Assembly (NCBI GenBank): GCA_023150935.1
Contig: JAKLJW010000001.1
Span: 124,001 to 188,000, forward strand
Length of the DNA: 64,000 bases
DNA from: Candidatus Binatia bacterium
GTDB lineage: Bacteria > Desulfobacterota > Binatia > HRBIN30
Direction of reading: 5' to 3'
How positions within the stretch are numbered: the first letter of the stretch is position 1; the number at the start of each line of letters is the position of its first letter. Below are positions 1 through 19,984 of this stretch, piece by piece. The notes beneath the pieces were generated by a model that had not been told where the DNA came from, searched no databases, and saw nothing but the letters and a program-made list of their open reading frames with translations. The position numbers and the translations under genes were made by a program.

Positions 1-1102
1 GGTCGCACTGCGGATCGGCGACTTCCAGCGTCGCCGTTGCGGGCACGAAGCCGTGGCCGATCGCCAGCACCGTGGCAAGCGCTTCGATCGCCCCGGCGGC
101 GGCCAGACAATGGCCGATCATCGACTTGGTCGAGCTTACCGGCACCATGTCGGCGCGGGCGTCGAGGACGGCCCGCAGAGCACGCGTCTCGAGAACGTCG
201 TTGCTGGGCGTGCCGGTGCCGTGGGCGTTGACGTAGTCGACGGCGCCGGCGTCGATGCGTGCATCCGCCAGGGCCTGCCGCATCGCCTGCAGCATGCCGG
301 CACTGTCCGGCCGACCGTGCGTGATGTGGTAAGCGTCGGCGCTGTTACCGTAACCGAGCACTTCGGCCTGGACGGTAGCGCCGCGCGCACGGGCGTGCTC
401 GAGATCCTCGAGCACGAACATCGCAGCGCCTTCGCCGAGCGTAAGCCCGGCCCGATTGCGGTCGAAAGGACGGCACGGAACCGCGTCGAGGGCCTGCAGG
501 GCGTTGAAGCCCGAGTAGGTCATGCGGCACAGGGAGTCGGCCCCGCCGCAGAGGACGGAGTGCGCCTGGCCCCGGCGGATCCAATCGGCCGCCACACCGA
601 TGGCGTTCGCTCCGGAAGAGCAGGCGGTCGATACCGTGAGGCGCGGGCCGGTACACCGAAATACGTGCGCCAGTTTGTCGGCGCCCACGGACACCGGCAC
701 CGCGAGAATCGCGCTGTGACGGCGCAGCGGCTCGCCGGCCAGCAGGCGGCGATAGTACTCCTCGCCGTCAAACATGCCCCCCGTCGTGGTTCCCAGTACG
801 ACCCCGATCCCGGGGTTATCCCGTTCGGTTGTCGGCAGCCCGGCGCCGGCAAGGGCCTCGTGCGCGGCAGTCAGCGCCAGCAAGTCGGTCCGTGACGCAT
901 GGCGTGCGGTGCCCGGAGCCATCCACGCCGGTGGCCCCGGGTCGTGCACCTCGGCGGCGATGGTGCTGCGATAGCCCGCGGTGCTGAAACAGGTCAGCGG
1001 ACCGATCGCGCAACGTGCCGAGCGCAAGCCGGCAAGGAATGCCGGGACGCCGGCGCCGAGAGCGTTTATGCTGCCGGCGCCCGTGACCACCACCCGTCGC
1101 AT
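1..1102 (-). CDS. Beta-ketoacyl-ACP synthase (FabF-type), 3' end outside window
   Basis: Condensing enzyme of fatty-acid or type II polyketide synthesis; cytoplasmic. The frame opens at an ATG at 1102 (RRVVVTGAG follows) after an AGGAA-type ribosome site and stays open to the left edge, so about 367 residues are visible and the last ~40 are missing. The Cys-His-His triad is intact: C161 in STACSSG, H294 in NAHGTGTPSND, H331 in TKSMIGH; the GEGAA motif is present. It is the last visible gene of a six-gene minus-strand operon, 60 bp after the acyl carrier protein. It probably acts on acyl chains carried by that protein. FabF-type is chosen over FabB from the overall motif pattern; the substrate cannot be read. 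Confidence 0.9.
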   Translation of the reverse strand, partial: MRRVVVTGAGSINALGAGVPAFLAGLRSARCAIGPLTCFSTAGYRSTIAAEVHDPGPPAWMAPGTARHASRTDLLALTAAHEALAGAGLPTTERDNPGIGVVLGTTTGGMFDGEEYYRRLLAGEPLRRHSAILAVPVSVGADKLAHVFRCTGPRLTVSTACSSGANAIGVAADWIRRGQAHSVLCGGADSLCRMTYSGFNALQALDAVPCRPFDRNRAGLTLGEGAAMFVLEDLEHARARGATVQAEVLGYGNSADAYHITHGRPDSAGMLQAMRQALADARIDAGAVDYVNAHGTGTPSNDVLETRALRAVLDARADMVPVSSTKSMIGHCLAAAGAIEALATVLAIGHGFVPATATLEVADPQCD

Positions 1103-1162
1103 GCTGTTCCTGCCTTCGAGAGCGGGATTGGACGGGTCTCCCCTCCGCATCCGACCCGCGGT

Positions 1163-1450
1163 CTATGGCGCCGGCGCTGGCTGCCCCGCCGGCGGCTGGT
1201 GCGCGAGGATGTAATTGGCGAGCGCGTCGATCGACGCAAACGCTTCCTTGCCGGCCTCTTCGTCCGGGATCACGACTCGGTAATGCTCTTCGACCAGGAC
1301 CACCAGTTCGAGTGCGTCGATGGAATCCAGGCCGAGCCCCGCCACAAAGATGGGTTCGCGGTCCCCGATCTCATCCGGCCGGACATCTTCAAGCTTGAGC
1401 CCCTCTACGAGCAGGCATTTCAGCCGTTGCTTCAACTCGTTACGATTCAC
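1163..1450 (-). CDS. Acyl carrier protein
   Basis: 95-residue carrier protein for acyl intermediates. The phosphopantetheine serine is S43 in the motif GLDSIDALEL, in the usual place at the start of helix II; the protein is acidic as expected, with a short Ala/Pro-rich tail (residues 86-95). The start is a GTG at 1450, preceded by AGGGCGGAA. It lies 44 bp after fabG and 60 bp before the second ketosynthase. A dedicated carrier inside the cluster suggests a specialised pathway separate from housekeeping fatty-acid synthesis; DSI instead of the common DSL also fits a non-housekeeping carrier. The specialised role is inference. Confidence 0.92.
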   Translation of the reverse strand: MNRNELKQRLKCLLVEGLKLEDVRPDEIGDREPIFVAGLGLDSIDALELVVLVEEHYRVVIPDEEAGKEAFASIDALANYILAHQPPAGQPAPAP

Positions 1451-1494
1451 GGTTCCGCCCTTCGTGCGTCTCAATCGCAGATAACGACGCGATT

Positions 1495-2265
1495 TCACAT
1501 CATCGTGAGGCCGCCATCCACAGTCAAGGTTGCGCCCGTGATGTAGCGGGCCCGGGGTGACGCCAAGAACGCCACCGCCTCGGCCACGTCCTCCGGTGTG
1601 CCGAAGGTTCCCAGCGGGATCTGCCCGAGGTGACGTTCGCGCACGGCGGCGGGCAACTCGCCGACCAGTGAGGTCTCGATGACGCCCGGGCACACCGCGT
1701 TCACGGTTATCTGGTACCGGGCTACCTCGCGTGCCAGTGACTTGCCGAGGCTGAGCAAGCCGCCTTTCGAGGCGGCGTAGTTGGCGGCGCCCTCGAGGCC
1801 GACCAGCCCGGCCGGCGAGACGATATTGACGATGCGGCCCCAGCGGCGCGCCACCATGGTGCGCAATGCCTGGCGGGTGCAGAGGAAGGCACCGCGAAGA
1901 TTGGTCGCCAGCACCGTGTCCCAGGCGGCTTCGGAGAGGAGCATCAGGTAGCCGTCGCGCGAAACCGCGGCGTTGTTCACCAGGATGTCGACGCCTCCCC
2001 ACCGTTCCTTGACCTGACTGAACATGTCGGCGACCGCGCCGTTGTCGGCGACGTCGGCCTGGACGACGTGCGCCTCCCCGCCGGCGGCCACGATCGCGGC
2101 CGCGGTCGCCTCGGCTTCCGCCGCCGAGCGGGCGTAGTTGACCGCGACCCGGGCCCCGTCGCGCGCCAACGCCAGCGCAACCGCCCGGCCGATACCGCGG
2201 CTCGCGCCCGTGACCAGCGCGCACTTGCCGGTCAAACCCTCCTCGGTCATCGCAGCAGTCGCCAT
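1495..2265 (-). CDS. fabG: 3-oxoacyl-ACP reductase (FabG-type SDR)
   Basis: Short-chain dehydrogenase reducing the beta-keto group made by the ketosynthases, using NAD(P)H. Visible motifs: cofactor loop TGASRGIG (residues 19-26), NNAA (97-100), and the catalytic triad S150, Y163, K167 in NYAASKGG. Length 256 matches the family. The ATG at 2265 has AAGGGA upstream; a second ATG at 2250 would overlap the radical SAM stop codon as ATGA, so the true start may be either. It overlaps the radical SAM gene by 19 or 4 bases, indicating translational coupling within the lipid/polyketide-like operon. The assignment to the family is firm; specificity for ACP substrates is inferred from the neighbours. 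Confidence 0.92.
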   Translation of the reverse strand: MATAAMTEEGLTGKCALVTGASRGIGRAVALALARDGARVAVNYARSAAEAEATAAAIVAAGGEAHVVQADVADNGAVADMFSQVKERWGGVDILVNNAAVSRDGYLMLLSEAAWDTVLATNLRGAFLCTRQALRTMVARRWGRIVNIVSPAGLVGLEGAANYAASKGGLLSLGKSLAREVARYQITVNAVCPGVIETSLVGELPAAVRERHLGQIPLGTFGTPEDVAEAVAFLASPRARYITGATLTVDGGLTMM

Positions 2266-3635
2266 AGCTGTCCCTTGACCCTCCGTTCGCGCAGTCGCCT
2301 GAGAACCTCGATGTTGGTGCGAATTCCCTTGCCCGGGACGATCCAGTTGCGTCGCGCCCGCGCGTGCGCGTCGATTCGGGCGACCAGGTCGTCGCCGAGT
2401 GCCGGCGCCACGTAGAACCGGGGGTAGAGCAGGGTGTCGTCGGGGTCAAGCTGGCCGTCGGCGAGGGCGCGTTCCACCATACCCGTTCCCGGCAGGATAC
2501 GGATCCCGGTCATGGCGATCACTGCCGTCGGCTGCACTTCGTCCATCAGGCCGAGGGTCTGAGTCACCGTCTCCCACGTTTCGCCGGGGCCGCCGAAGAT
2601 AAGGCTGTGACAGAACTTCAGTCCGTAACGGCGGCAGAGTTCCGAGGCCCGCCGTAGATCGTCGACGTCGAATTCCTTCTTCAACGTCGCGATCATCTGG
2701 GGCGCCCCGGAGTCGGTCCCGAACTCGATTGCCTTGCAACCCGAACGGGCCATCAGGTCGCACAGCTCGGCATCGACGAAGCGGGGAGTGAGGTAGCCGG
2801 ACCATTCTATCGACAGGCCGCGGGCGACGATTTCCTCGCAGATCTCCTTGGCGTGCCGCAGCGGTGCGTTGAAGACGTTGTCGACGAAGAACCAGTTGCG
2901 GGCCCCGTGCTCTTCGAGCACCCCCTGCAACTCGTCGACGACGGCCCGCGCGCTGCGCAACCGTATCCGCGAGCCCTCGATCAGCGGGTAGCTGCAGAAG
3001 ATGCACTCGAAGACGCACCCGCGTTTGGTCTGAATGTTCAGGGCGCCCCCGCGCTCGTAATACCCGTGTACATCGAATTGCGACCGCCACGGAACGACGC
3101 CGGTGTCGAGGTGCCCGAGGCGCACGGCCGGCGCGACGCAGACGCCGTTCCCAACGCGCCGGCAGGTGACCGCGGCGGTCGAAGTCAGCTCGGCGCCGCG
3201 CGCGATCCGCTCCAGCACCCAGGGGAAGCTCAGCTCGCCTTCGCCGATTACGCCCACCTCGGCAGCAAGGTGGGCGAGGATCGTTTCCGGCATGACCGTG
3301 AAACCGGCGCCGCCCAACACGATCGGCGCCGCCGTCGACTGCCGGATGCCGTCGACGAGAGCCGCGTAGTCGTCGATGTACGAGGTGTTCTCCGGATAGG
3401 CGGCCGAATCGAGGTTGCGCAGCGAAATGCCGACAACGTCCGGAACCGCGTCGCGCACGGCCGCGGCCACGGCGGCGAGCGGGTTATCGAGGAAACAAAG
3501 GTCGAGAGTATGGACCGCGTGCCCGTGCTGCGAGGCCGCGGCAGCCATGTACGCCGCTCCGAGCGGGAACACCGGGTCGGGTAGCTGTTCCCGGTTGGCG
3601 GAGATGAGCAGCACGCGCAACGACTGCCGGTCCAT
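2247..3635 (-). CDS. Radical SAM protein with B12-binding-like N-terminal domain
   Basis: 462 residues. Residues 1-140 form a cobalamin-binding-like Rossmann domain (GISLRN, VLGGAGFT, GEGELSF), although the classical DxHxxG base-off ligand is not evident. The radical SAM core follows with its cluster motif CX3CX2C at C207, C211 and C214 (RGCVFECIFCSYP). This architecture is shared by BchE-like and methyltransferase-like B12 radical SAM enzymes. Such enzymes methylate or rearrange unactivated carbons. Being embedded between ketosynthase-like and fabG genes, with 6 bp and overlapping junctions, it probably modifies the acyl chain on the carrier or the released product. The actual reaction is unknown. 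The start ATG at 3635 begins DRQSLRVLLISAN. Confidence 0.85.
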   Translation of the reverse strand: MDRQSLRVLLISANREQLPDPVFPLGAAYMAAAASQHGHAVHTLDLCFLDNPLAAVAAAVRDAVPDVVGISLRNLDSAAYPENTSYIDDYAALVDGIRQSTAAPIVLGGAGFTVMPETILAHLAAEVGVIGEGELSFPWVLERIARGAELTSTAAVTCRRVGNGVCVAPAVRLGHLDTGVVPWRSQFDVHGYYERGGALNIQTKRGCVFECIFCSYPLIEGSRIRLRSARAVVDELQGVLEEHGARNWFFVDNVFNAPLRHAKEICEEIVARGLSIEWSGYLTPRFVDAELCDLMARSGCKAIEFGTDSGAPQMIATLKKEFDVDDLRRASELCRRYGLKFCHSLIFGGPGETWETVTQTLGLMDEVQPTAVIAMTGIRILPGTGMVERALADGQLDPDDTLLYPRFYVAPALGDDLVARIDAHARARRNWIVPGKGIRTNIEVLRRLRERRVKGQLWRLLR

Positions 3636-3641
3636 CGCCGA

Positions 3642-4898
3642 TCACCCCGCGCTGTCGAGCACCACTGCCACGCTCGTTCCGGAATAGCACAGGCCGTGGA
3701 TCATCGCCGATCGCGCGCGGGCGAGCCGATCGGCCACGCGGGTGGCCGGTCGCACCCCGGAGTCGGCCGCGATCTCGACGGCAAGCGCGTCGATCGACCG
3801 TGGCCGAGGCGGGTTCGTCATCAGCCCGGCGGCGAGAACGAACGCGAGCGCGCCGCTGGCGGCGAAGCCGTCGCCCAGTGCGCGCTTGGGCGCGAATACG
3901 AGTGGGGCCGCTGGTGCGGCGGCATACAGACGGCGCAAAGCGGCCGCTTCCACGGCGTCCAGCGGGGTTCCGTGAGCACTGCTCATGACGATGCCCACGT
4001 CGCCCGCCGGTCGCGCCGCCGCGGCCAGCGCCCGACGCAAGACGGCATCGATGCCGGTGGTTTGCCGTTGCCGCTCGGCGAGCGTGGGCTCGAAGCCCGA
4101 AGCGTAACCGGCGACCCGCGCCAGCGGACGGGCTTGTCTGGCGGCGGCGTGCTGCGGCGATTCGAGGACGACGACCACCGCCCCCTCCCCGGGAACGAGC
4201 CCGGGTGCCGCATCCTCGAAGGGCACCGGCACAGAACGTTTCAGCAAGCCCATGTCGTCGAGGGCCTGCAGCAGAGTGGGACCGAGCGCATCGCCGCCCC
4301 CGGCCAGCACCACGTCGGCGCGTCCCAGGTGGATGAGGTCGACGGCACGGCCGATCGCCTGCAAACCGGCGGCGAGTCCGGCGTGCATCGTGGCATTGAC
4401 GCCGCGAATGCCGAGGGCGATCGAGACCTCGCCGGCGGCGGCGCTCGACACCGTGTAGGCGAACAACTGCGGACTGGCTCCAGCGGGTCCGGACTCGATG
4501 ACCTTCTCGAAGTAGGCGGCGTTGGTCAGCAGGCAACCGAGGCCGGTTCCGAACACCAGTCCGACGCGTTCGCTGTTCTCGGCTTGCAGGTCCAGTCCGG
4601 AATCGACCACCGCCCGACTCGCGGCGGCCAGGAAGAGACGGGTGATTCTGTCCATCCGACCCACCCGCCGCAGGGTGCCGGCCGGGATCGCGTCCTGAGG
4701 GATGTCGGCGACCACCGCCGCCAGGGCGCCTTCGCGCCCGGTTCCGGTCACCGGCAGGATGGCGCTTTCGCCGAGTGCGAAGCGTCGGGTCAGTTCGGCG
4801 ACGGAGTGTCCGAGCGGAGAGACGACGCCGGCGCCGGTCACGACGGCGGACATTCCGGACTTCGGTTCTGAGTGCCGCGGGAATTTCATGAGCAGCAT
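3642..4898 (-). CDS. Catalytically degenerate ketosynthase, chain-length-factor-like (KS-beta)
   Basis: 418 residues with a full thiolase/ketosynthase fold signature (VVTGAGVVSPLG, GEGAVVVVLE). Aligned to its two neighbours, the nucleophilic Cys is replaced: the stretch HAGLAAGLQAIG puts Leu175 where TACSSG has Cys. The second His is also lost (ALGDGFAASG, Asp343), whereas the first His (AHGTPLD, H309) remains. In type II polyketide and aryl-polyene systems such an inactive paralogue, the chain length factor, dimerises with the active ketosynthase and sets chain length. Pairing with the active ketosynthase encoded 61 bp upstream is therefore likely. The start may be the ATG at 4898 or the one at 4853 (SAVVTGAG follows). 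Confidence 0.88.
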   Translation of the reverse strand: MLLMKFPRHSEPKSGMSAVVTGAGVVSPLGHSVAELTRRFALGESAILPVTGTGREGALAAVVADIPQDAIPAGTLRRVGRMDRITRLFLAAASRAVVDSGLDLQAENSERVGLVFGTGLGCLLTNAAYFEKVIESGPAGASPQLFAYTVSSAAAGEVSIALGIRGVNATMHAGLAAGLQAIGRAVDLIHLGRADVVLAGGGDALGPTLLQALDDMGLLKRSVPVPFEDAAPGLVPGEGAVVVVLESPQHAAARQARPLARVAGYASGFEPTLAERQRQTTGIDAVLRRALAAAARPAGDVGIVMSSAHGTPLDAVEAAALRRLYAAAPAAPLVFAPKRALGDGFAASGALAFVLAAGLMTNPPRPRSIDALAVEIAADSGVRPATRVADRLARARSAMIHGLCYSGTSVAVVLDSAG

Positions 4899-4959
4899 CC
4901 GCGCGGGTTAGTCTCGAGCGGAAGACATCGGGTATCCGCCGAAAGACCTGGCCCGGGCG

Positions 4960-6246
4960 TCAGACGGCGTGGCGTTCATCTGTCGCGTCGTTGCGGTTCC
5001 CGATCGAGGCGGGAGTCAGATTGCGAAGCACGACGGCGGCGTTGTTGCCGGCGAAGGCGGAAGAGGTCGACAAGGCGCAGCGCACCGGATGCGGCCTCGG
5101 CGCACCCATGACGACGTCCAGGCTGCAGGCCGGATCGAGTTGTTCGCAGTTGAGGGTCGCGGGCACGAGTCCGCTGCGCATTGCCATGACGCACATGATG
5201 GCTTCGAAGCTGCCGGCCGCCGCCAGCGTGTGGCCGATGGCGCCCTTGATCGAGTTGACCGGCACGCTGCCCGCGCGATCGCCGAGAACCGCGGCGATCG
5301 CGGCGCACTCCATGGCGTCGTTGAAGACGGTGCCGGTGCCGTGGGCGCTGACGAAGTCGACGGCGGCGGAATCGGTCCCGGCGTCGCGCAATGCCATGCG
5401 CATGGCGCGGGCGGCGCCGCTGCCGTCTCGGGCCGGGGCGGTCATGTGGGTCGCGTCCCCCGCCATGCCGGTCCCCGCCACTTCGACGGCAACGGTCACC
5501 CCACGCTGGCGCGCATGTTCCAGCGCTTCGACGATAACGACGGCAGATCCCTCGCCGAGCAGTAACCCGGAACGGCGCGCATCGAAGGGCCGGACCACGT
5601 CCGCGGTCGTTGCGCGCAAGCAGTTGAAACCGTTGACGACGAACGGCGACAGCGCCTCCGCGCCGCCGACAATGAAGAGGTCGCCGCGGTCCAGACGCAC
5701 GAAGTCGAGGGCTATCCCGATGGCCTCGGTGCCGGAGGCGCAGGCGATGGACGGACTGAGCACCGGGCCGCGCACGCCGAGGGTCCGCGCCAGCCGGTTG
5801 GCGACATCGTAATAGGGATGGTGCAGCAGGGCGCGAGCGTCGAAACCGCCGCGCGGCCCGGCGGTTTGCGCCAGATAGCGTTCGCCGATTTCCATGCCGC
5901 CAAGGGTGGTACCGAGCAGCACCCCGACGCGGGTCGGGTCGATCGCCGCGAGATCGAGAGCGGCGGCCGCAATCGCCTCGCGGGTTGCTGCCAGCGCGTA
6001 CTGGTCTACCCGGCCGAGCCGTTCCCTTTCCGCCGCGGACAGCCGGTGTTCGGGAATCGGGTCGGCGATTTCGGCTGCCCACGTAACGCTCATCCCGGTA
6101 GTGTCGAAACGGCGAATCGGCGCGCAGCCGCGGCGCCCGTCGAGAAGCGCCTGCCAGAAGGCCGGTAGCGAATTGCCGACGGGTGAAACGACGCCGCAAC
6201 CGGTAATTCCCGCCCGGCGTTTCCGGCTGGAAAAAAACATGCCCAT
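4960..6246 (-). CDS. Beta-ketoacyl synthase (KS-alpha candidate)
   Basis: 428 residues, full-length FabF-type condensing enzyme. The triad is complete: C169 in SIACASG, H302 in SAHGTGTVFND, H339 in KGAIGHTLAAAG; GEGSAV is also present. It is the first gene of the minus-strand lipid/polyketide-like operon and precedes the inactive ketosynthase-like partner by 61 bp, the order seen in KS-alpha/KS-beta pairs. The start could be the ATG at 6246 or 6240; neither has a strong ribosome site. It probably forms a heterodimer with the downstream protein and elongates chains on the cluster's carrier protein. Confidence 0.92.
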   Translation of the reverse strand: MGMFFSSRKRRAGITGCGVVSPVGNSLPAFWQALLDGRRGCAPIRRFDTTGMSVTWAAEIADPIPEHRLSAAERERLGRVDQYALAATREAIAAAALDLAAIDPTRVGVLLGTTLGGMEIGERYLAQTAGPRGGFDARALLHHPYYDVANRLARTLGVRGPVLSPSIACASGTEAIGIALDFVRLDRGDLFIVGGAEALSPFVVNGFNCLRATTADVVRPFDARRSGLLLGEGSAVVIVEALEHARQRGVTVAVEVAGTGMAGDATHMTAPARDGSGAARAMRMALRDAGTDSAAVDFVSAHGTGTVFNDAMECAAIAAVLGDRAGSVPVNSIKGAIGHTLAAAGSFEAIMCVMAMRSGLVPATLNCEQLDPACSLDVVMGAPRPHPVRCALSTSSAFAGNNAAVVLRNLTPASIGNRNDATDERHAV

Positions 6247-6341
6247 GGGAACGGTGGAGAACCGTACAGAAACCGCGCCGCGGCAGCAACAACGCGCCGG
6301 TTGCCGGTGCGCACGGATCCGTGCGGCGCGAGCCTCGCCGA

Positions 6342-9068
6342 TCAGAAAGATTGCCGTGTGCCGAAGAGCACCTGCAGCCCTCCGGTGCTGCCGGGGCCAT
6401 GGGCCTCCGTGGCGAACTCGAGATAGGCAACATGGGGGAAGAACCCCATTACCTCGTACATCGCGGCGACGCCGATGCCCACGCCGACAGCGTATCCGGT
6501 GGGGTCGTATATCCGACCGGCGGAGTTACTCACCTGACCGGTGTCGACAAACAGCCGCAACTGCGAGCGCCGCAGAACGATCAGGTCGAAGAAGCTGAGA
6601 TCGATTTCCGGGTAAATCGTCTGCCGTACCTCGGTGCGGAGCAGGAAGATATTGCGTGCGAGTTCCTCCTCCGCGCCGATGCCGCGGATCGATAGGGAAC
6701 CCCCGAGACTGAAGAGCCCCTGCAACGGTACCGCGGTCGAACCCGTGGGCTCAATAAAGCCGTTCACGACCTCGGCGGCGACCACCGTGCGATGCGTCAG
6801 GACGGGATGGGTAAAGCCGGCCGCGGCGCCGAAGCGAACGTAGTCGAAGTTGCTGCCGATTGCGGTGTCGAACCAATCGAGAAACAGGCGGCCGCGCGCA
6901 GACTGAGTCGGGTTGTTGAGGGTCTGCACGGTGGTGTAGTCGTAGCGCGCGCCCAGGGTGTTGACGTGGCCGGCGGTGCGGAGCGACGGGTTTTGCCGGT
7001 CGCGGAATCCGGGGTCGAGAGACTCGATCCCGTAGAAGGCGTACAGGTTGTGCCTGTAGGTATTGGGATCGTTCTGCGGCCCCCAGTGCAGGCGGGGGCC
7101 AAGTGCCGCGCCGATACCGCGGTTCGTGTAGAACCCGGCCAGGGCCAGGTCCTTCGTGTAATCGTAGCGACCGCGCGCGACCACCAACCCGGCGATGGCA
7201 AACTCGGTCGAGGAGACGTCGACAGTGGCGGAATCGAGAACAACCTGTGCGATCGGCGGGCGCGCGTTGTCGGCCCGAGACGTCTCCAGCAGGCGCTGCC
7301 CGGGATCGATTACCGCCTGCCACGGCCGCGCGACCGATGCGATCCGGAGTCGGCCGGTGTCCCCGACGCCGTCCCAGGTGAGGCGCAGAGGCTCGCCACC
7401 GAGAGTCCGCACGGTAACCGGCACCGGCTCCCGGATGGGGCGCGATGACCGCCGCCGCAGCACCAGTTCGCCGGCATAGCCGCCGGCAGGGTCGTGCGCG
7501 GTGCGGAAGTCTGCAATCGAGTAGTTCAGCTTCGGATACGGCTGTACCCATTGCTCGTAGAACTCGTCTAGCCGCAATCCGCTCGCTGACGCGGTGCAGT
7601 GCCGGAAGGGATGCGGGGAGGCAAGACAACGGTCTATGGTTTGCTCGAAGTCCCGGTCGCCGAGTTCCAGATGCAGCTTCCCGAAGATCACGTGTCCGGG
7701 GGGCAGGGCGTTGTTGAACGTCGTGAAGCGGTCGCGCACCTGATCGACTTCCGGCACGCTGTCGAAGAGCGTTTCCGCAAACGGCATCTTCGGTGCGGTC
7801 TCGAAACGGTCGACGATGGCGAAGAAGTTGAACAGATCGATCCATTCGCGGGTGGTCCGAGTCGTCGGATAGATCTGCTTGCGGTAGCGTTCCGCGAGGA
7901 GGTGTGCCTCGCCCTCCCGCACCCAGACGAAATCCCGGGTGGGCTCGCGGGCCGCCAGCGTGGGCCGCAGGACCTCGGCGTACACGGCGCGCGCGAGTTC
8001 GCGGTCGTGAAACGGGTGCAACAGCGGAAACACGTGCAGGGTGCGGTCCGAGATCGCCACCATGCCGTCGCCTTGCGCGGTGAGTTCCCAGCGCAGCGGC
8101 ACCTCGACGACCGCCAGCGAGCGCGGGAAAGGCGGTGTTCCCGGCGGCGGGTTGGCGACGATATTGCGCAGCGCGTCCAGCGTGACCGTGTGCGGGTCGG
8201 GGCCGACGCCGAGTCCGAGGCGATAGGTCAGGCTGGGGGAGCGGGAGAAAAGACTGAGCCGTGTGTTGCCCGCGATGACGTCGTCGCGTCGCAGGTCGGG
8301 TGCGGCCACGAGGGTCAACGCGTGAACAGCGGAGACGTGGGTGTGGATTTCGCCGCGCGGGGCAGGGAAGTAACGGCCGTTGACGAGGACGTCGTTATCG
8401 TCGGGGACGCGCAACGTAAGGTCGTAATCGGCGACCCGCGGCAGCATCTCCGTTGCCCAGGAGCCGTCGGGTTCGAGCGCGGCGACGGCGGGATACCAGC
8501 CGCCGAGGGCGGTGAGCATGCCGTCGGCGACGCCGAAGGTGCCGTAGCGTTGCGGAATGGTGGTGACGAAGTCGGCGGTCAACACGACTCTTCCTCCCGG
8601 CGGAACGGGGTGTGCCGGTAGCACCTCGAGGAAGCACCGCGCCGCTAGGTCGGAAGCCGCAAGTGGCCGCGTCTGCGCGGCTTGGCCCTCGATACGCACC
8701 GCCTCGACGTGCATGGCGCCGGGGCTGAACGCCTCGCGATACCAGATGTAGGGTCGGTTGACGTCGGTAACGGTCGGGTCGGGAGCCGCGAACCGATTCG
8801 GGAACAGGACGAGAACGATGCGATCGAGCGGCTGTGCGGTGGGATTGCTGAACTCCACCGTCGCCTTGCCGCCGATCCGCGGGGGGTCCAGCGAGAGCGT
8901 CGCCTCTATTCGGTAGAGCGGGAGAGCGGCGGTGCCGCCCGCGGCCGCGCCGCCCGCGGCGGTGCCGGGGGCCAGCAGGCCAAGCAGGCCGGCGCAAATT
9001 CCGAGGAAGCGATGTCCTTGCCCGCGCACGTCTCGTCCCGGTTGCGAATCCGCCGATCGCGCCGTCAT
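6342..9068 (-). CDS. Outer-membrane protein: M1-peptidase-like N-terminus fused to Omp85/surface-antigen-like barrel
   Basis: 908 residues. Residues 1-45 hold a signal peptide. Residues ~50-500 resemble the beta-sandwich and catalytic region of M1 aminopeptidases, but I find no HExxH zinc motif, so peptidase activity is doubtful. Residues ~610-908 show alternating beta-strands, an Omp85-type motif (LGGSLSIRGIG), the pattern LFVDTGQV and a terminal Phe, all typical of BamA/TamA-like barrels. No POTRA domains are seen; the M1-like part takes their place. It sits 95 bp before the first ketosynthase on the same strand and may be cotranscribed with that operon, which would fit export or surface placement of a product. 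Fold calls are by eye. Confidence 0.65.
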   Translation of the reverse strand: MTARSADSQPGRDVRGQGHRFLGICAGLLGLLAPGTAAGGAAAGGTAALPLYRIEATLSLDPPRIGGKATVEFSNPTAQPLDRIVLVLFPNRFAAPDPTVTDVNRPYIWYREAFSPGAMHVEAVRIEGQAAQTRPLAASDLAARCFLEVLPAHPVPPGGRVVLTADFVTTIPQRYGTFGVADGMLTALGGWYPAVAALEPDGSWATEMLPRVADYDLTLRVPDDNDVLVNGRYFPAPRGEIHTHVSAVHALTLVAAPDLRRDDVIAGNTRLSLFSRSPSLTYRLGLGVGPDPHTVTLDALRNIVANPPPGTPPFPRSLAVVEVPLRWELTAQGDGMVAISDRTLHVFPLLHPFHDRELARAVYAEVLRPTLAAREPTRDFVWVREGEAHLLAERYRKQIYPTTRTTREWIDLFNFFAIVDRFETAPKMPFAETLFDSVPEVDQVRDRFTTFNNALPPGHVIFGKLHLELGDRDFEQTIDRCLASPHPFRHCTASASGLRLDEFYEQWVQPYPKLNYSIADFRTAHDPAGGYAGELVLRRRSSRPIREPVPVTVRTLGGEPLRLTWDGVGDTGRLRIASVARPWQAVIDPGQRLLETSRADNARPPIAQVVLDSATVDVSSTEFAIAGLVVARGRYDYTKDLALAGFYTNRGIGAALGPRLHWGPQNDPNTYRHNLYAFYGIESLDPGFRDRQNPSLRTAGHVNTLGARYDYTTVQTLNNPTQSARGRLFLDWFDTAIGSNFDYVRFGAAAGFTHPVLTHRTVVAAEVVNGFIEPTGSTAVPLQGLFSLGGSLSIRGIGAEEELARNIFLLRTEVRQTIYPEIDLSFFDLIVLRRSQLRLFVDTGQVSNSAGRIYDPTGYAVGVGIGVAAMYEVMGFFPHVAYLEFATEAHGPGSTGGLQVLFGTRQSF

Positions 9069-9201: not shown

Positions 9202-10530
9202 TCAGTCGCAGCCCGCCAGCGAGCGGTTCACTGCGGTCAGCAGTTCGGCGACGTCGACCTGGCCATCGGCGCCGATGTCGAGACTCATGCAGGCGGTCAG
9301 CGGTGCGTAGCCGAGAGCGACGTTTACCGCGTAGACGATCTCGTCGATGGTCACGTCGCCGCTGCCGTCGCAGTCGCCGTGGCAGGTGTCGGCCGCGAAC
9401 GGGTCGCTGAAGCGCGGATCGGTCAGGAAGGTGTTGTCGGTAAGGCTTTCGAGAAACGCGATGAGGTCGGCTTTCTCCTGTGCGGTCAAGCTGAACCCGA
9501 CCAGCAGATCGCTTTTCAGCGGGCTGGCGCTTCCGACTCCGGCGTAGGGTCCCTCGGCGATCGTGCGGCCGCCGGCGGCGTAGTGGTCGATGACCTCGTC
9601 GAGGGTTGCGATACTGCCGTCGTGCATGTACGGCGCGGTGACGGCGATGTTGCGCAGTGTCGGCGCCTTGAAGCGGCCCATGTCATCGGCCTTTCCGGTG
9701 ACGGCCGCCGCGCCGGTATTGTCGGGTGGGTAGGCGCCGCGGCCGTCGAGATTGTAGAGGCCGGTGTTGTGAAAAGCGGCGCCGACAACGGGTTGGCCGC
9801 CGTGTCCGAGGGTGCCGGAAAAGTTGAACCCGCCATGGCAGTGGAAGCACTCCAGCCGTTCGGAGAAGAAGAGCCGGCCGCCGCGCACCGCCGCCGGTGA
9901 GAGGGCGTTGGGATCGATGCCGTTGACGAACCGGTCGTAGGGGGCGTTGCCGGAGAGCAGCGTGCGTTGGAAGGCGGCCAGCGCTCTGGTGACGTTGACC
10001 GGCGAGATGGGCTCGGCATCGGCGGGGAAGGCGGTCTGAAAGAGTTCCGGGTAGCGGCGGTCCTCGCGCAGGCGCCGCAGCAGTTCGTCCTCGTGCCCGC
10101 CCATGCCGAGAACGACGGGGTCGGAGCCGAAAAGAGCGACCGGCGCCTGTGCTTCGAGGCTGCGCAGGTCCGGATTCGCCCACTCGAAGGTCGAGAGGTA
10201 GGCGACGTTGGCAATGCTCAAGGAGCCGCGCGGGTGTCGGGTGCCGGTCGATCCGAGGGCGTGGGCGCGGCCGTCGGTGAAGGCGAGCGGCTGAAGGTGG
10301 CACGTGCCGCAGGATTGAGTCAGGTTCCACGACAGGCGGCGGTCGTAGAAGAGGCGCCGGCCGAGTTCGACCTTTTCGATGGTCATGGGGTTATCCGCCG
10401 GGACCCCGGGGGCGGGGAACCCGGGCGGCAGATTCCACACATAGGGGGTCGCCGCCGGAGCGGTCGGGGCGGCCATTGCGACGAGCAGGGCCGCGAGCGC
10501 CGCCACCCGGCTAGCCGTCGGTTTCCTCAT
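9202..10530 (-). CDS. Diheme cytochrome c peroxidase/MauG-like protein with dockerin-like EF-hand tail
   Basis: 442 residues from the ATG at 10530 (RKPTASRV follows), which has AGAGGAA upstream and gives a clean signal peptide ending at APAA. Two c-heme motifs: SCGTCH (about residues 73-78) and CFHCH (228-232), the spacing of the bacterial CCP/MauG family; the protein acts in the periplasm or at the surface. The C-terminal ~60 residues are an addition not found in ordinary CCPs: two EF-hand-like loops ([14 protein letters not shown] and [14 protein letters not shown]) ending in Cys, as in dockerin-type calcium modules. The same module starts the surface protein at 16709. The electron donor and substrate are unknown. 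Confidence 0.88.
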
Positions 10531-10739
10531 GATCGCAGTGTTCCTCTCGCCTCGTAGCGTCGTAGCGCCGGGTCGGCCCTTTGCAAGCTGCCGCAAGACG
10601 CGGGTTAACGCCGCAACTCACCAGCCAGCCGGCGGCGGACCGAACCAGAACGCTGTCCGGCTGGTCGCCCGATCCCGTGGCGCCGGTGTGGTGGAGCGTC
10701 CTGTTCGGCATTTCCCTGGCAAGCAAGTTCCCCTCGGGG

Positions 10740-16454: not shown

Positions 16455-16494
16455 GCGAGGACAACCAGCCGCGTAGCAATACGTGTAAAACCAT

Positions 16495-16506
16495 GTTGCA
16501 TGCAAC
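16495..16506. promoter_or_regulatory. 12-bp perfect palindrome upstream of the ZIP gene
   Basis: GTTGCATGCAAC reads identically on both strands. On the minus strand its TTGCAT could serve as a -35 element with TATTGC about 18 bases downstream, so a bound repressor would block the zip promoter. No particular regulator can be named. Confidence 0.35.
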
Positions 16507-16708
16507 GCCGGGTCGGCTCAGGTCGTCCGGCAACCGCCAGTGCCGGTGGCGTAACCCGCCCGTTCCGCCAAATCGCCGTCGGGGACAGCCCGGGCCGCGG
16601 CCGAACGGAGACCGAACGCCCGTTCGCGCTGGCGTGGCATTGCACATGCTAATTGCCGTGGGGCTGCCTGTAGCGAATGGGCGAGCGGGTGGTTCCGAGG
16701 ATGGAGGC

Positions 16709-19700
16709 ATGTCGAGGGCCCTTGCGAAATTGCTGGCTTCCGTCGGGCTGTTTGTCGGGGCGGTGTCGATTTCCGCGACCGCCATGGCCGTGTGTGCCGG
16801 CGACATCGACGGCGACGGTCAGGTGTCCGTCGACGAGCTGATCGTGCTTGTCCGCAACGCCACTGAGGGCTGCGTGCCCGGGGTGCCCTGTGCCGGCGAC
16901 ATCGACGGCGACGGGGCGGTTACGGTGGACGAGCTGATGGCAGCGATTCGCAATGCGCTCGAAGGTTGCCCGCGTCATCCGACCGCGACCCCGACCGCGG
17001 CGCGATCGGCAACTCCGACGAGCACGCCGGGATGCGAGGACATCAACCTCTGCCACTTCATTCGCAGTCCGGGGTTCTGGAAGAACTACCGCAACCATAT
17101 GTCGGACGCGCAGTTCCTGGCCATTCTGCAGGCGACTGGGGACTTCGGCGGTCTGAGCGTCGCCCAGGCCATGGCGATTCTCGAAGACACTTCGAACCAG
17201 TACATGAGGCACCTGCTGGCGGCGGAACTCAACGCCGCGTGGAATGGCGACGTTCACGACCCCGCTCCCGGTGGCCAACTCGGCGATGGGGTCTACAGCA
17301 ACCCGGCGTACCCGGCCAGTACCTTGAACGGACTCACGGTTAACGAGATTAACCACATTGCCTTCGTCACACCGTCCGAGGATGCCGGTTCCGACCTCGT
17401 TGCTTATGTTCTGTACGTCGGCGCGGGCGGGGAAGGCGCCTCGAGGACCGCGTGTCTCGTCAAGCCGCCGCAGTGCATCACGCCGACCCCGACCCGATCG
17501 GCGACGAGGACCGGCACGCGCACGTCCTCGCCGAGCCGGACACCCACGGCCACGAGCACGAGCACCCCGAGTCCGACCGCGAGTCCAACCCTGGCGCCGA
17601 CCGCTACGCCTTCGCCAGGCGCCACCGCGACGCCGATCTTCACTGCTACGACCAGCCCTACCGTCACCGGGACCCTAACTCCGACGCATACCCCGAGTCT
17701 CACCGCGACCCGGACGGCGACCCGGAGCAGAACGCCCACGCGCACCCGCACGCCAACGGCTACGGTCACTGCCACGGCCAGTGTGACCGCGACAACCACG
17801 TGGACCATGACGGCGACCGGCACACCTTCCAGAACGGCGACAGGTACGCCGACTTACAGCGCGACAGCGACTGCGACCGGGACCGCCTCGGTGACGCCGA
17901 CCAGGACCGCGACGACGACACCGACGCGCACGGCGACCAGGACGGCGACGCTTACGGCGACGGCGACGGCGAGCGCGACGGCGACAGCGACGGTCACGGC
18001 CACGAGGACGGGGACGCGGACAGCGACGGCGAGCCGGACGGCAACCCGGACCGCAACTGTCACGTTGACCCCGACCGCGACGGCAACGGCGACGCGGACG
18101 GCAACCGTCACGGCGACATCGACGCCAACAGCGATCCCGAGCGCGACGCAGAGCGCGACCGCAACGGCGACAAATACGGCAACACCGACCGGAACCGCGA
18201 CGTTGACGCCGACGCCATCGGCGAGCCGAACGGCGAGTCGGACGGCGACCTTCACCGCGACCCCGAGCGCGACCGCGACACCCAGCCTGACGCCAACTCG
18301 TACGGCGACGTCGACGTTAACCGCGACCTCGACCCCGACCTCGACAGGGACGTCGATGCCGACCCGTACGGCAACGCCGACCGAGACGCCGACCACGACC
18401 CCGATGCCGACGGCGACGATGACGTCGACCCGAACGGCGACGCATACGCCGACAGCGACCCCCACGGCAATCCCGACCGAGACCGCCACCTCGACACCGA
18501 CGGAGGTGGCAACGCCGACCGCGACAGCCAGTGCGACGGCGAGCGGGACCGTCACCGCGACGGTCACGCCGACCGCATCGGCGACTCATACGGCGACGTC
18601 GACGTTGACCGCGACGCCGACGGTGACCCTCACTGTGACCCCGACTGGGACCGCAACGTTGATGCCGACCGAGACGCCGACCGAGACGGCAACCGCAACG
18701 CCGACGGCCACGGCAACGCCGACGCCCACCGCACCGGCGACGCCGTCCGCGACTCAGACAGCGTCGTTCACGGCGACCTCCATCGCAACGTTGACGCCGA
18801 GCGCGACGGCGACCCCCAGCGCAACGCAATCCCCGTCGTCCACGCCGAGCGGGACCCCAACCGCACCGCCGACTGCTACGGCGTCGCCCCCGCCCACGGG
18901 CACGAGTACTCCGACGTTCAGCCCCACCGCATCCCCGACCGATTCCCCGACGGCAACCCCGACGGCGGTACCCAGCTCCACCCCGACGACAAGCCCGACG
19001 GCCGTGCCGACGCCTTCCGTCACGCCGACCGCGAGCGCCACGGAGACCCTCTCCCCGACAGTTACTCCCACCGCCACGGCGACGGCCGCGCCGAGCTTGA
19101 CCCCGACCGTAAGCGCAACGACGACACCGACGCTCACCGTGACGGCGACGACGGTGCCGAGCGCCACGCCGAGCGCGAGCGCGACCCAGAGTGCGACGGC
19201 TTCCCCAACTCCGTTGCCGTCGAGCACGCCGACGGAGAGCACGGCTCCCACGGACACGCCGACCGGAACGCCAACGACGACCCCGACGGCCGTCGATACG
19301 CCCACGGGCACGGCGACGCCGACGCCAAGTCAGACGCCCACGCTCAGCCAGACACCACCTCCCAGTCAGACACCGACCCCCAGTCCGAGTGTGCCGCCGA
19401 CGTCAAGCCCGACCGCGAGTCCCTCTCCGTCGATCACGGCGACCCCGATCCCGAGCTCGACCCCGACCGTGACGGGGACGCCGACCGCAACGCCAACGCC
19501 GGGTGCGCCGGTCTTGCAGATCGTCAAGACCTCGGAGTCGGAAGTGTCCCCGGGTGCCGTGCTGGTGTACACGATCGCGTTCGCCAACATCGGCAGTGGA
19601 ACCGCCACGGGTGTGGTGATTACCGAGACCGTGCCGGACCACACGAAGTTCGAGGCCGGCGCCGGCACGCCGGGATGGAGTTGCCCCGACGGCAGCTTGC

Positions 19701-19984
19701 CCGGCACCACCTGCACGCACGGCGTCTCGGACCTGCCGCCGGGCGCGGGCGGCTCGCTGCTTTTTGCCGTCCGGGTCAACAATCCCGCGGGCGCCGTGGC
19801 GATCCGCAACAACGTCGTCATCAGCGACGAGGAGGGCGGGGAGAGCAGCGGTGGCGACTCCACGATCGTTCGCGGTTCGGCGCCCGTGCCGCTCTTGAGT
19901 GCGCGGGGTATCCTGGCGGCAATCGCGGCCCTGGCAGTGGTCGCGATCGTGGGCCTGCGCCGCCAGCGGCGCTCGGCGGGTTGA
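16709..19984 (+). CDS. Giant secreted Pro/Thr-rich surface protein with EF-hands, DUF11 and C-terminal anchor
   Basis: 1091 residues from the ATG at 16709 ([10 protein letters not shown] follows); signal peptide to about residue 31. Order of parts: two dockerin-like EF-hands ([14 protein letters not shown] and [14 protein letters not shown], residues ~34-90); a Thr/Pro spacer; a Cys-flanked domain (~110-255) with the SPGFWKN motif found in many bacterial surface proteins; a ~670-residue linker almost wholly of Pro, Thr, Ala and Ser (TPTATPT-type, ~260-930); a DUF11 beta-sandwich (~932-1055); and PVPLLSARG, a hydrophobic helix and RRQRR, the layout of IPTL/PEP-CTERM sorting tails. The linker is probably extended and may be glycosylated. 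Likely a stalk-like adhesin or scaffold. The downstream gene is unrelated. Confidence 0.82.
17488..19503 (+). repeat. ~2-kb low-complexity repeat encoding the TPT linker
   Basis: Degenerate short repeats built from ACC/ACG/CCG/GCG codons. Because of the base bias, other frames also stay open for hundreds of codons (Asp/Gly/Arg-rich on +, Val/Gly/Ala-rich on -). Only the Pro/Thr frame is flanked by recognisable domains. Confidence 0.9.

Follow-up and report, generated by a model that had tools for sequence, protein, structure and literature searches.

What does a protein do that joins a peptidase-like fold to an outer-membrane barrel, and is it tied to the lipid-type genes among which it is encoded? 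The question is raised by a gene of Candidatus Binatia bacterium (contig JAKLJW010000001.1) at positions 6342..9068, on the minus strand, of the 64,000-nucleotide stretch analysed here, referred to as the window. A preliminary description, drawn from the letters alone, had taken the product for an M1-peptidase-like region followed by an Omp85-type barrel, and had suggested a secretion, assembly or surface-binding machine, perhaps serving the adjacent pathway. Profile and structure comparisons confirm that an M1-like peptidase fold joined to an Omp85 barrel is a real architecture. The protein belongs to the Omp85 kind and is M1-like in fold, not an M1 peptidase; together with its lipid-gene setting, the fusion suggests an undescribed route by which molecules are delivered to the outer membrane.

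A peptidase fold joined to an Omp85 barrel

The reading frame starts with ATG, has the same limits as in the preliminary description and encodes 908 amino acids, with a codon-position GC content similar to that of its operon neighbours. The open reading frame (ORF), Pfam matches, AlphaFold model and conservation divide the product into an M1-like module, a small beta domain and an Omp85-type barrel, preceded by a probable Sec signal region (residues 18-46, 8931..9017; this and all further features of the gene are on the minus strand) recognised from its hydropathy and from similar hydrophobic N-terminal stretches in homologues. The AlphaFold2 model of the whole protein (14 sequences), with a predicted local distance difference test (pLDDT) of 77.2 and a predicted template modelling score of 0.77, shows both the M1-like fold and the barrel. 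For the M1-like module (residues 50-507, 7548..8921) the best matches of the whole model among solved structures are tricorn factor F3 and ERAP1, with Z about 25 and a root-mean-square deviation (rmsd) of about 8 Å over 420-431 residues; for 3q7j and 1z1w, Z is 25.1 and the rmsd 8.0-8.1 Å over 420 residues. The LTA4 hydrolase structure 1hs6 aligns over 363 residues with an rmsd of 4.6 Å (Z 22.4). A profile of the N-terminal region made from 20 family sequences matched three M1 peptidases of the same class that carry HExxH (probability 99.4, E 2.8e-21, 429 columns), including a paralogue from the window genome (L055 8324-10294) with a Pfam Peptidase_M1 match (E 2.5e-13). None of the 20 members matched the Pfam M1 family (PF01433) at E≤0.01, the Pfam scan of the window protein gave no match above cut-off in its first 600 residues, and a PDB sequence search with the fusion protein returned chance matches only.

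As judged from these alignments, the module is catalytically dead. HExxH, whose lack had been noticed from the outset, occurs in none of the 23 family sequences (two of them partial and one split over frames), and its equivalent in the window protein is the degenerate zinc site HDREL (354-358, 7995..8009). Across the 20 intact sequences histidine stands at position 354 in every one, glutamate at 355 in 13, histidine at 358 in none and glutamate at 385 in 12, the position of the second zinc histidine being leucine, valine or isoleucine throughout. With HExxH and His358 absent to this extent, a live metallopeptidase was ruled out. In the alignment, GMVAISD falls opposite the GMEYP strand (GxMEN-type) that the active-type paralogues have, with SDR (340-342) in its place; Ser340 and Asp341 are present in 20/20 sequences and Arg342 in 19, the remaining one having SDK. 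In this motif and in the PLR motif at 324-326 (together 8043..8102; alignment and profile match), Pro324, Leu325, Arg326, Ser340 and Asp341 stay invariant when two distant relatives, from genomes G335 and G383, are added, whereas His354 does not. Since the second zinc histidine has been lost while the SDR of the old binding strand is retained, the module would seem to have kept its cleft and lost its chemistry, and it resembles a module for binding, not an enzyme. Within the class no 12-residue stretch is better conserved than VDRFETAPKMPF (419-430, 7779..7814), which forms a low-confidence loop in the model; its DRF motif is absent from both distant relatives.

The small beta domain (513-587, 7308..7532), defined by the AlphaFold model and the alignment, is missing from six of the 20 members, all of family f9. 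It is followed by the Omp85-type barrel (607-908, 6345..7250), supported by Pfam, alignment and both models. Pfam matches Omp85 (PF01103) to residues 639-868 (E 3.3e-11, 43.7 bits against a cut-off of 24) and to 13/20 members at E≤0.01. The TamA barrel 4n74 superposes on the barrel model over 260 residues (Z 20.8, rmsd 3.8 Å), and BamA does so with Z about 18-19. The LGGSLSIRGIG sequence picked out in the preliminary description is the loop-6 motif (788-798, 6675..6707). Its Arg795 is found in all 20 members and in the distant pair, the glycine that follows being replaced by alanine at three loci (L039, L040 and L042), and the terminal Phe908 is likewise present in 20/20 members and both distant relatives.

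Both AlphaFold models, that of the whole protein and that of the barrel only (pLDDT 78.6), have 14 long strands, nine before loop 6 and five after it, with a barrel pLDDT of 54-90 per block. Most E. coli BamA structures align only from residue 450 onward; a few begin earlier with a larger rmsd, for example 8pzu_A at 406 and 6fsu_B at 412, and 4n74 (314 residues) is aligned at 291-575, its initial part being unmatched. The first BamA strand, at about 424-435, lies ahead of the aligned part, and it is this strand that forms the lateral gate. From where the BamA and TamA alignments start and from the 14-strand models, the first hairpin of the barrel (strands 1 and 2) has apparently been lost, and with moderate confidence the models point to a barrel of 14 strands lacking that hairpin, not one of 16. 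In the portions available of two Omp85-related papers, the term '14-stranded' refers to FadL and to Toc90/Toc159.

No POTRA domain was matched by Pfam in the 22 members scanned (the 20 class members and the distant pair), while the identical scan, run as a control, detected POTRA in six of seven other Omp85 proteins; no patatin domain was matched in the 20 members. By its place N-terminal to the barrel, like POTRA and the patatin domain of PlpD (PMC11116518, in part), the M1-like head is predicted to be periplasmic, and the surface-binding role first proposed finds no support.

The superfamily is described, in the available parts of two papers (PMC4104836, PMC11116518), by a 16-strand barrel with POTRA domains and a few subfamilies without POTRA. 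With TamA and BamA the fusion protein has in common the barrel fold, the loop-6 RG-type motif and the C-terminal phenylalanine, and it differs from them in its M1-like head, in having no detectable POTRA and in the 14 long strands of its model. PlpD resembles it in carrying an enzyme-type fold N-terminal to an Omp85 barrel; however, in PlpD that fold is a patatin-type lipase, one POTRA is retained and the barrel has 16 strands (PMC11116518, in part), whereas here POTRA is not detected and the chemistry is predicted to be dead. Among the ten subfamilies of Heinz and Lithgow (2014), the WD40, Metallo and noNterm groups similarly have no POTRA at the N-terminus, but 'Metallo' denotes PF00149 and not an M1-like head (PMC4104836, in part). 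Section 10 of that paper names no M1-like subfamily, and neither 'peptidase' nor 'aminopeptidase' occurs as the start of a word in the paper's available text. The head folds like the N-terminal and catalytic domains of M1 peptidases (ERAP1, tricorn factor F3, LTA4 hydrolase and the paralogue in the window genome), and it is unlike these proteins in having neither HExxH nor a Pfam M1 match and in being joined to a barrel. Omp85 proteins without POTRA are thus already known; what is new is a conserved subfamily with a putatively dead M1 module instead. No description of the combination of M1 and Omp85 was found in the literature searched, which covered few subscription papers. Such a subfamily, perhaps with a shorter barrel as well, makes it possible to ask which components the machine cannot do without.

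Distribution and linkage to lipid genes

Among 98 genomes around the window some match was found in 35, and 23, the window's own included, carry the fusion protein, counted as genomes with matches above 290 bits; 20 of these sequences are intact, one is frame-split and two are cut by contig ends. The alignment contains the 20 intact sequences and excludes the frame-split one (G046) and those at contig ends (G002 and G014). Aligned over their full length and free of internal stops, the other 19 intact sequences share 36-51% identity with the window protein, and with 20 intact sequences a sequencing or frame artefact was ruled out. The split of the G046 homologue (L045 11066-13698) over reading frames reflects either an assembly error or a decaying gene.

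A scan of genome contigs with the single window protein found no relative, a scan of the contigs with the profile gave 14 loci, all apparently in genomes found before, and plasmids gave no match. In a draw of genomes from the phylum the profile matched 2/297 at 1e-10, the window's own genome and G335, whose ORF of 859 amino acids matches the whole profile over 792 columns (probability 99.6, E 4.9e-25). A second distant full-length relative, G383, came from 198 genomes around G335 (2/198). A wider draw gave matches at 1e-8 in 10/395 genomes: besides the window's own, G020 and G335, there were seven matches to the barrel only, six with POTRA and one a bare Omp85, which were not counted as relatives of the fusion. 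The bare one (L101, G228 C253:9671-10198) is a frame of 519 amino acids in which Pfam recognises an Omp85 barrel but, N-terminal to it, neither POTRA nor any other domain. Set directly against the active-type M1 paralogues the distant pair matches weakly (probability 12.9, E 0.0022, 107 columns), and their M1 nature is accepted because both match the Binatia profile. A restriction of the fusion to the class Binatia was ruled out by G335 and G383; the fusion is old, rare and present beyond one class.

Within the class the gene keeps particular company. Of the relatives' loci, 19/19 have one or more lipid-cluster genes (≥100 bits), compared with 1/20 control stretches, where the match is an oxidoreductase of the short-chain dehydrogenase/reductase (SDR) type; two or more lipid-cluster families are present at 14/19 loci compared with 0/20 controls. 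The queries were proteins of the window genome only, and the controls were stretches of the same genomes at round coordinates, chosen before reading; the 19 loci include that of the frame-split G046 and exclude L053 as well as L032 and L052, which have too little flank. The window genome has LolA-like and MMPL genes beside the fusion, and so do four relatives' loci, L033-L035 and L053; three of these four have an AMP-ligase as well, among them L053, which is outside the 19. In L039, L040 and L042 the neighbours are radical-SAM/B12, acyltransferase, deacetylase, LPG-synthase and AMP-ligase genes, and in L046-L048, L050 and L051 they are acyltransferases and GT2 genes. In L034 (5109-8575) the genes immediately upstream of the fusion encode a caspase-fold protein (PF00656) and, after it, a protein with WD40 repeats.

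A strong AMP-ligase orthologue is present in 12 of the 21 genomes searched, within about 12 kb of the fusion in nine of the 12 and across five families, and a B12 radical-SAM orthologue in 15 of the 21, within about 17 kb in eight of the 15. Over the 98 genomes the B12 radical-SAM gene occurs in 17/23 with the fusion compared with 8/75 without, the AMP-ligase in 13/23 compared with 6/75, and either of these markers in 20/23 compared with 10/75. Co-occurrence with ketosynthases, which the preliminary description had singled out for checking, proved too narrow as the key link. A ketosynthase adjoins the fusion only in the window genome and at three loci of family f4 (L036-L038), and lies about 10 kb away in G012; the linkage is instead to a wider set of lipid and transport genes.

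Possible roles of the fusion protein

The explanation that we favour, tentatively and as somewhat short of probable, is that of an Omp85 insertion or translocation protein in which a dead M1 module serves as a periplasmic receptor in place of POTRA, working in an envelope-lipid pathway in Binatia; both substrate and mechanism are inferred. The ketosynthases, acyl carrier protein, SDR, FabA-like protein, radical-SAM enzymes and acyltransferases would produce a lipid, which an MMPL pump and LolA-like carriers would move over the inner membrane and through the periplasm. The dead M1 fold, with the small beta domain in most members, would take the place of POTRA and its cleft would receive the lipid or its carrier, the lipid then passing through the seam of the barrel into the outer membrane.

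The linkage to lipid genes in the class supports the suggestion that the fusion serves the adjacent pathway. A partial precedent is the aryl-polyene clusters of E. coli, in which LolA-like ApeL, the RND protein ApeM and LolB-like ApeN are the proposed means of lipid delivery, and a final flip over the outer membrane is called only potential in the part of the paper available (PMC8253772). The window genome similarly clusters a LolA-like carrier, an RND/MMPL pump, an acyl ligase, ketosynthases and acyltransferases, but Table 1 of that paper (PMC8253772, in part) lists neither the fusion protein nor the B12 radical-SAM enzymes. DUF3261 (LolB-like) gave no match in the ORFs scanned, some small ORFs being outside the scan. 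The ladderane-type clusters of Kuenenia and Desulfotalea (PMC2649909, in part) are alike in having a B12 radical-SAM enzyme, matched here by TIGR04072, and several FabF paralogues. The term 'outer membrane' is absent from the ladderane paper (PMC2649909), and the Binatota paper (PMC8262859) has no occurrence of the lipid, cluster and outer-membrane terms looked for. TamA and TamB have been discussed for phospholipid flow (PMC11014939, in part), so that an Omp85 protein acting on lipids is hardly a far-fetched idea, though an unproven one.

Several observations weigh on the other side. The Omp85 proteins studied so far all act in protein assembly or translocation (PMC11116518, in part). Related genomes inflate all of the linkage and co-occurrence counts, so that the p-values of 1.3e-8 for the B12 radical-SAM gene and 2.8e-6 for the AMP-ligase are overstated. 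A marker gene is held by 10/75 genomes without the fusion, while 3/23 with the fusion hold neither marker; MMPL or LolA genes adjoin the fusion in only 3/19 loci, in a count that used some queries from the tested loci themselves; and three f4 loci have nothing nearby but ketosynthases, one of them also an SDR. In both G335 and G383 the gene sits between those for phosphoglycerate mutase and tRNA nucleotidyltransferase (named from their translations), and with such housekeeping neighbours the fusion is not bound to a lipid pathway. Service to the adjacent pathway finds support in the lipid- and ketosynthase-type genes of the class and none in the neighbours of the distant relatives. The protein may have a broader role that became tied to lipids in Binatia; otherwise the linkage is uninformative on function.

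A narrower form of the lipid explanation, in which a POTRA-less 14-stranded Omp85 insertase that has lost its gate hairpin uses the dead M1 receptor to accept lipids of ladderane or polyene type that a LolA-like carrier brings, is rather doubtful as a whole. The linkage to envelope-lipid genes makes the question of how such lipids arrive at the outer membrane testable at one gene.

A serious and quite possible alternative is that the protein is a general assembly factor or translocase of outer-membrane proteins, as are BamA, TamA and FhaC, the groove of the dead M1 module binding unfolded or extended polypeptides and the linkage to lipid genes being incidental or regulatory. M1 folds bind peptides, and this proposal would fit both the functions of the Omp85 proteins already studied and the housekeeping neighbours of the distant relatives. 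It accounts poorly for the strong lipid-gene linkage and co-occurrence in Binatia; moreover, no recurrent candidate client gene was seen adjoining the fusion in the families inspected, and the barrel apparently lacks strands 1 and 2 in the models.

Less easily reconciled with the barrel is the proposal that the dead M1 module is a scaffold holding partners, such as LolA or the periplasmic domain of MMPL, near an ordinary pore or plugged barrel, with no insertion taking place. Segment 419-430, being both the most conserved in the class and a low-confidence loop, is what would be expected for partner binding. However, conservation is higher in the barrel than in the M1 module (mean pairwise identity 0.53 compared with 0.38), and 48 of the 302 barrel columns are invariant, Arg795 included, which suggests an active barrel and makes a mere scaffold unlikely. 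It is quite improbable that the module is an enzyme or metal binder with some other chemistry, built from His354 with Ser340 and Asp341 and working in the periplasm with a lipid or a cell-wall component as its substrate, in the manner of the PlpD patatin domain: the three residues are invariant in 20/20 sequences, but the incomplete conservation of glutamate at 355 and 385 and the variation of His354 once the distant pair is included speak against it. That the module is a passenger carried through the barrel to the cell surface, as PlpD was first described (PMC4104836, in part), is highly improbable, the head of PlpD having later been placed in the periplasm (PMC11116518, in part) and the M1 module and barrel diverging in step (r = 0.95 over 190 pairs, mostly reflecting shared descent).

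Neighbouring genes in the window genome

Downstream of the fusion a series of genes on the same strand continues to the edge of the window. A FabF-type beta-ketoacyl synthase (4960..6246, minus; domain match) lies 95 bp from it and is followed by a second beta-ketoacyl synthase (3642..4898, minus; domain match), a B12-binding radical-SAM protein (2247..3635, minus) that matches TIGR04072 rSAM_ladder_B12 with 377.2 bits against a cut-off of 360, a 3-oxoacyl-ACP reductase-type SDR (1495..2265, minus; domain match), an acyl carrier protein (1163..1450, minus; PP-binding match) and a further beta-ketoacyl synthase (2..1150, minus), which extends past the window's edge into the L057 lipid cluster. 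To the left, this cluster contains a ketosynthase, LolA-like and FabA-like proteins, weakly LolA_like proteins, MMPL, an AMP-ligase and a radical-SAM protein, and also a polysaccharide deacetylase, an LPG-synthase-TM protein, an ICMT/PEMT-like protein, radical-SAM/B12 proteins and a lipid A-type acyltransferase. Taken together, L057 and window positions 1-9068 (G000 C1:105000-134600) make up a large cluster of lipid/polyketide type, which encodes LolA-like proteins and an MMPL pump alongside several ketosynthases and two B12 radical-SAM enzymes. The orthologue of the ladderane-type radical-SAM protein is 63-70% identical in several Binatia.

On the other side, 133 bp separate the start of the fusion from the stop of a gene for a MauG-type peroxidase (9202-10596), also on the minus strand. 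The C-terminal 60 or so residues of the peroxidase form a cysteine-bearing, EF-hand/dockerin-like tail that recurs in another genome (L054 15529-15711; 46% identity, E 1.4e-12), and part of a window ORF of 1163 amino acids (16493-19984) matches the same stretch (48%, E 5.9e-9). The tail is perhaps a C-terminal sorting or anchoring tag shared within the lineage. Directly after the gene of an M1 peptidase bearing HExxH, three genomes encode a family of proteins of 277-286 amino acids (L055 7460-8320, L054 7494-8327 and L056 11278-12135).

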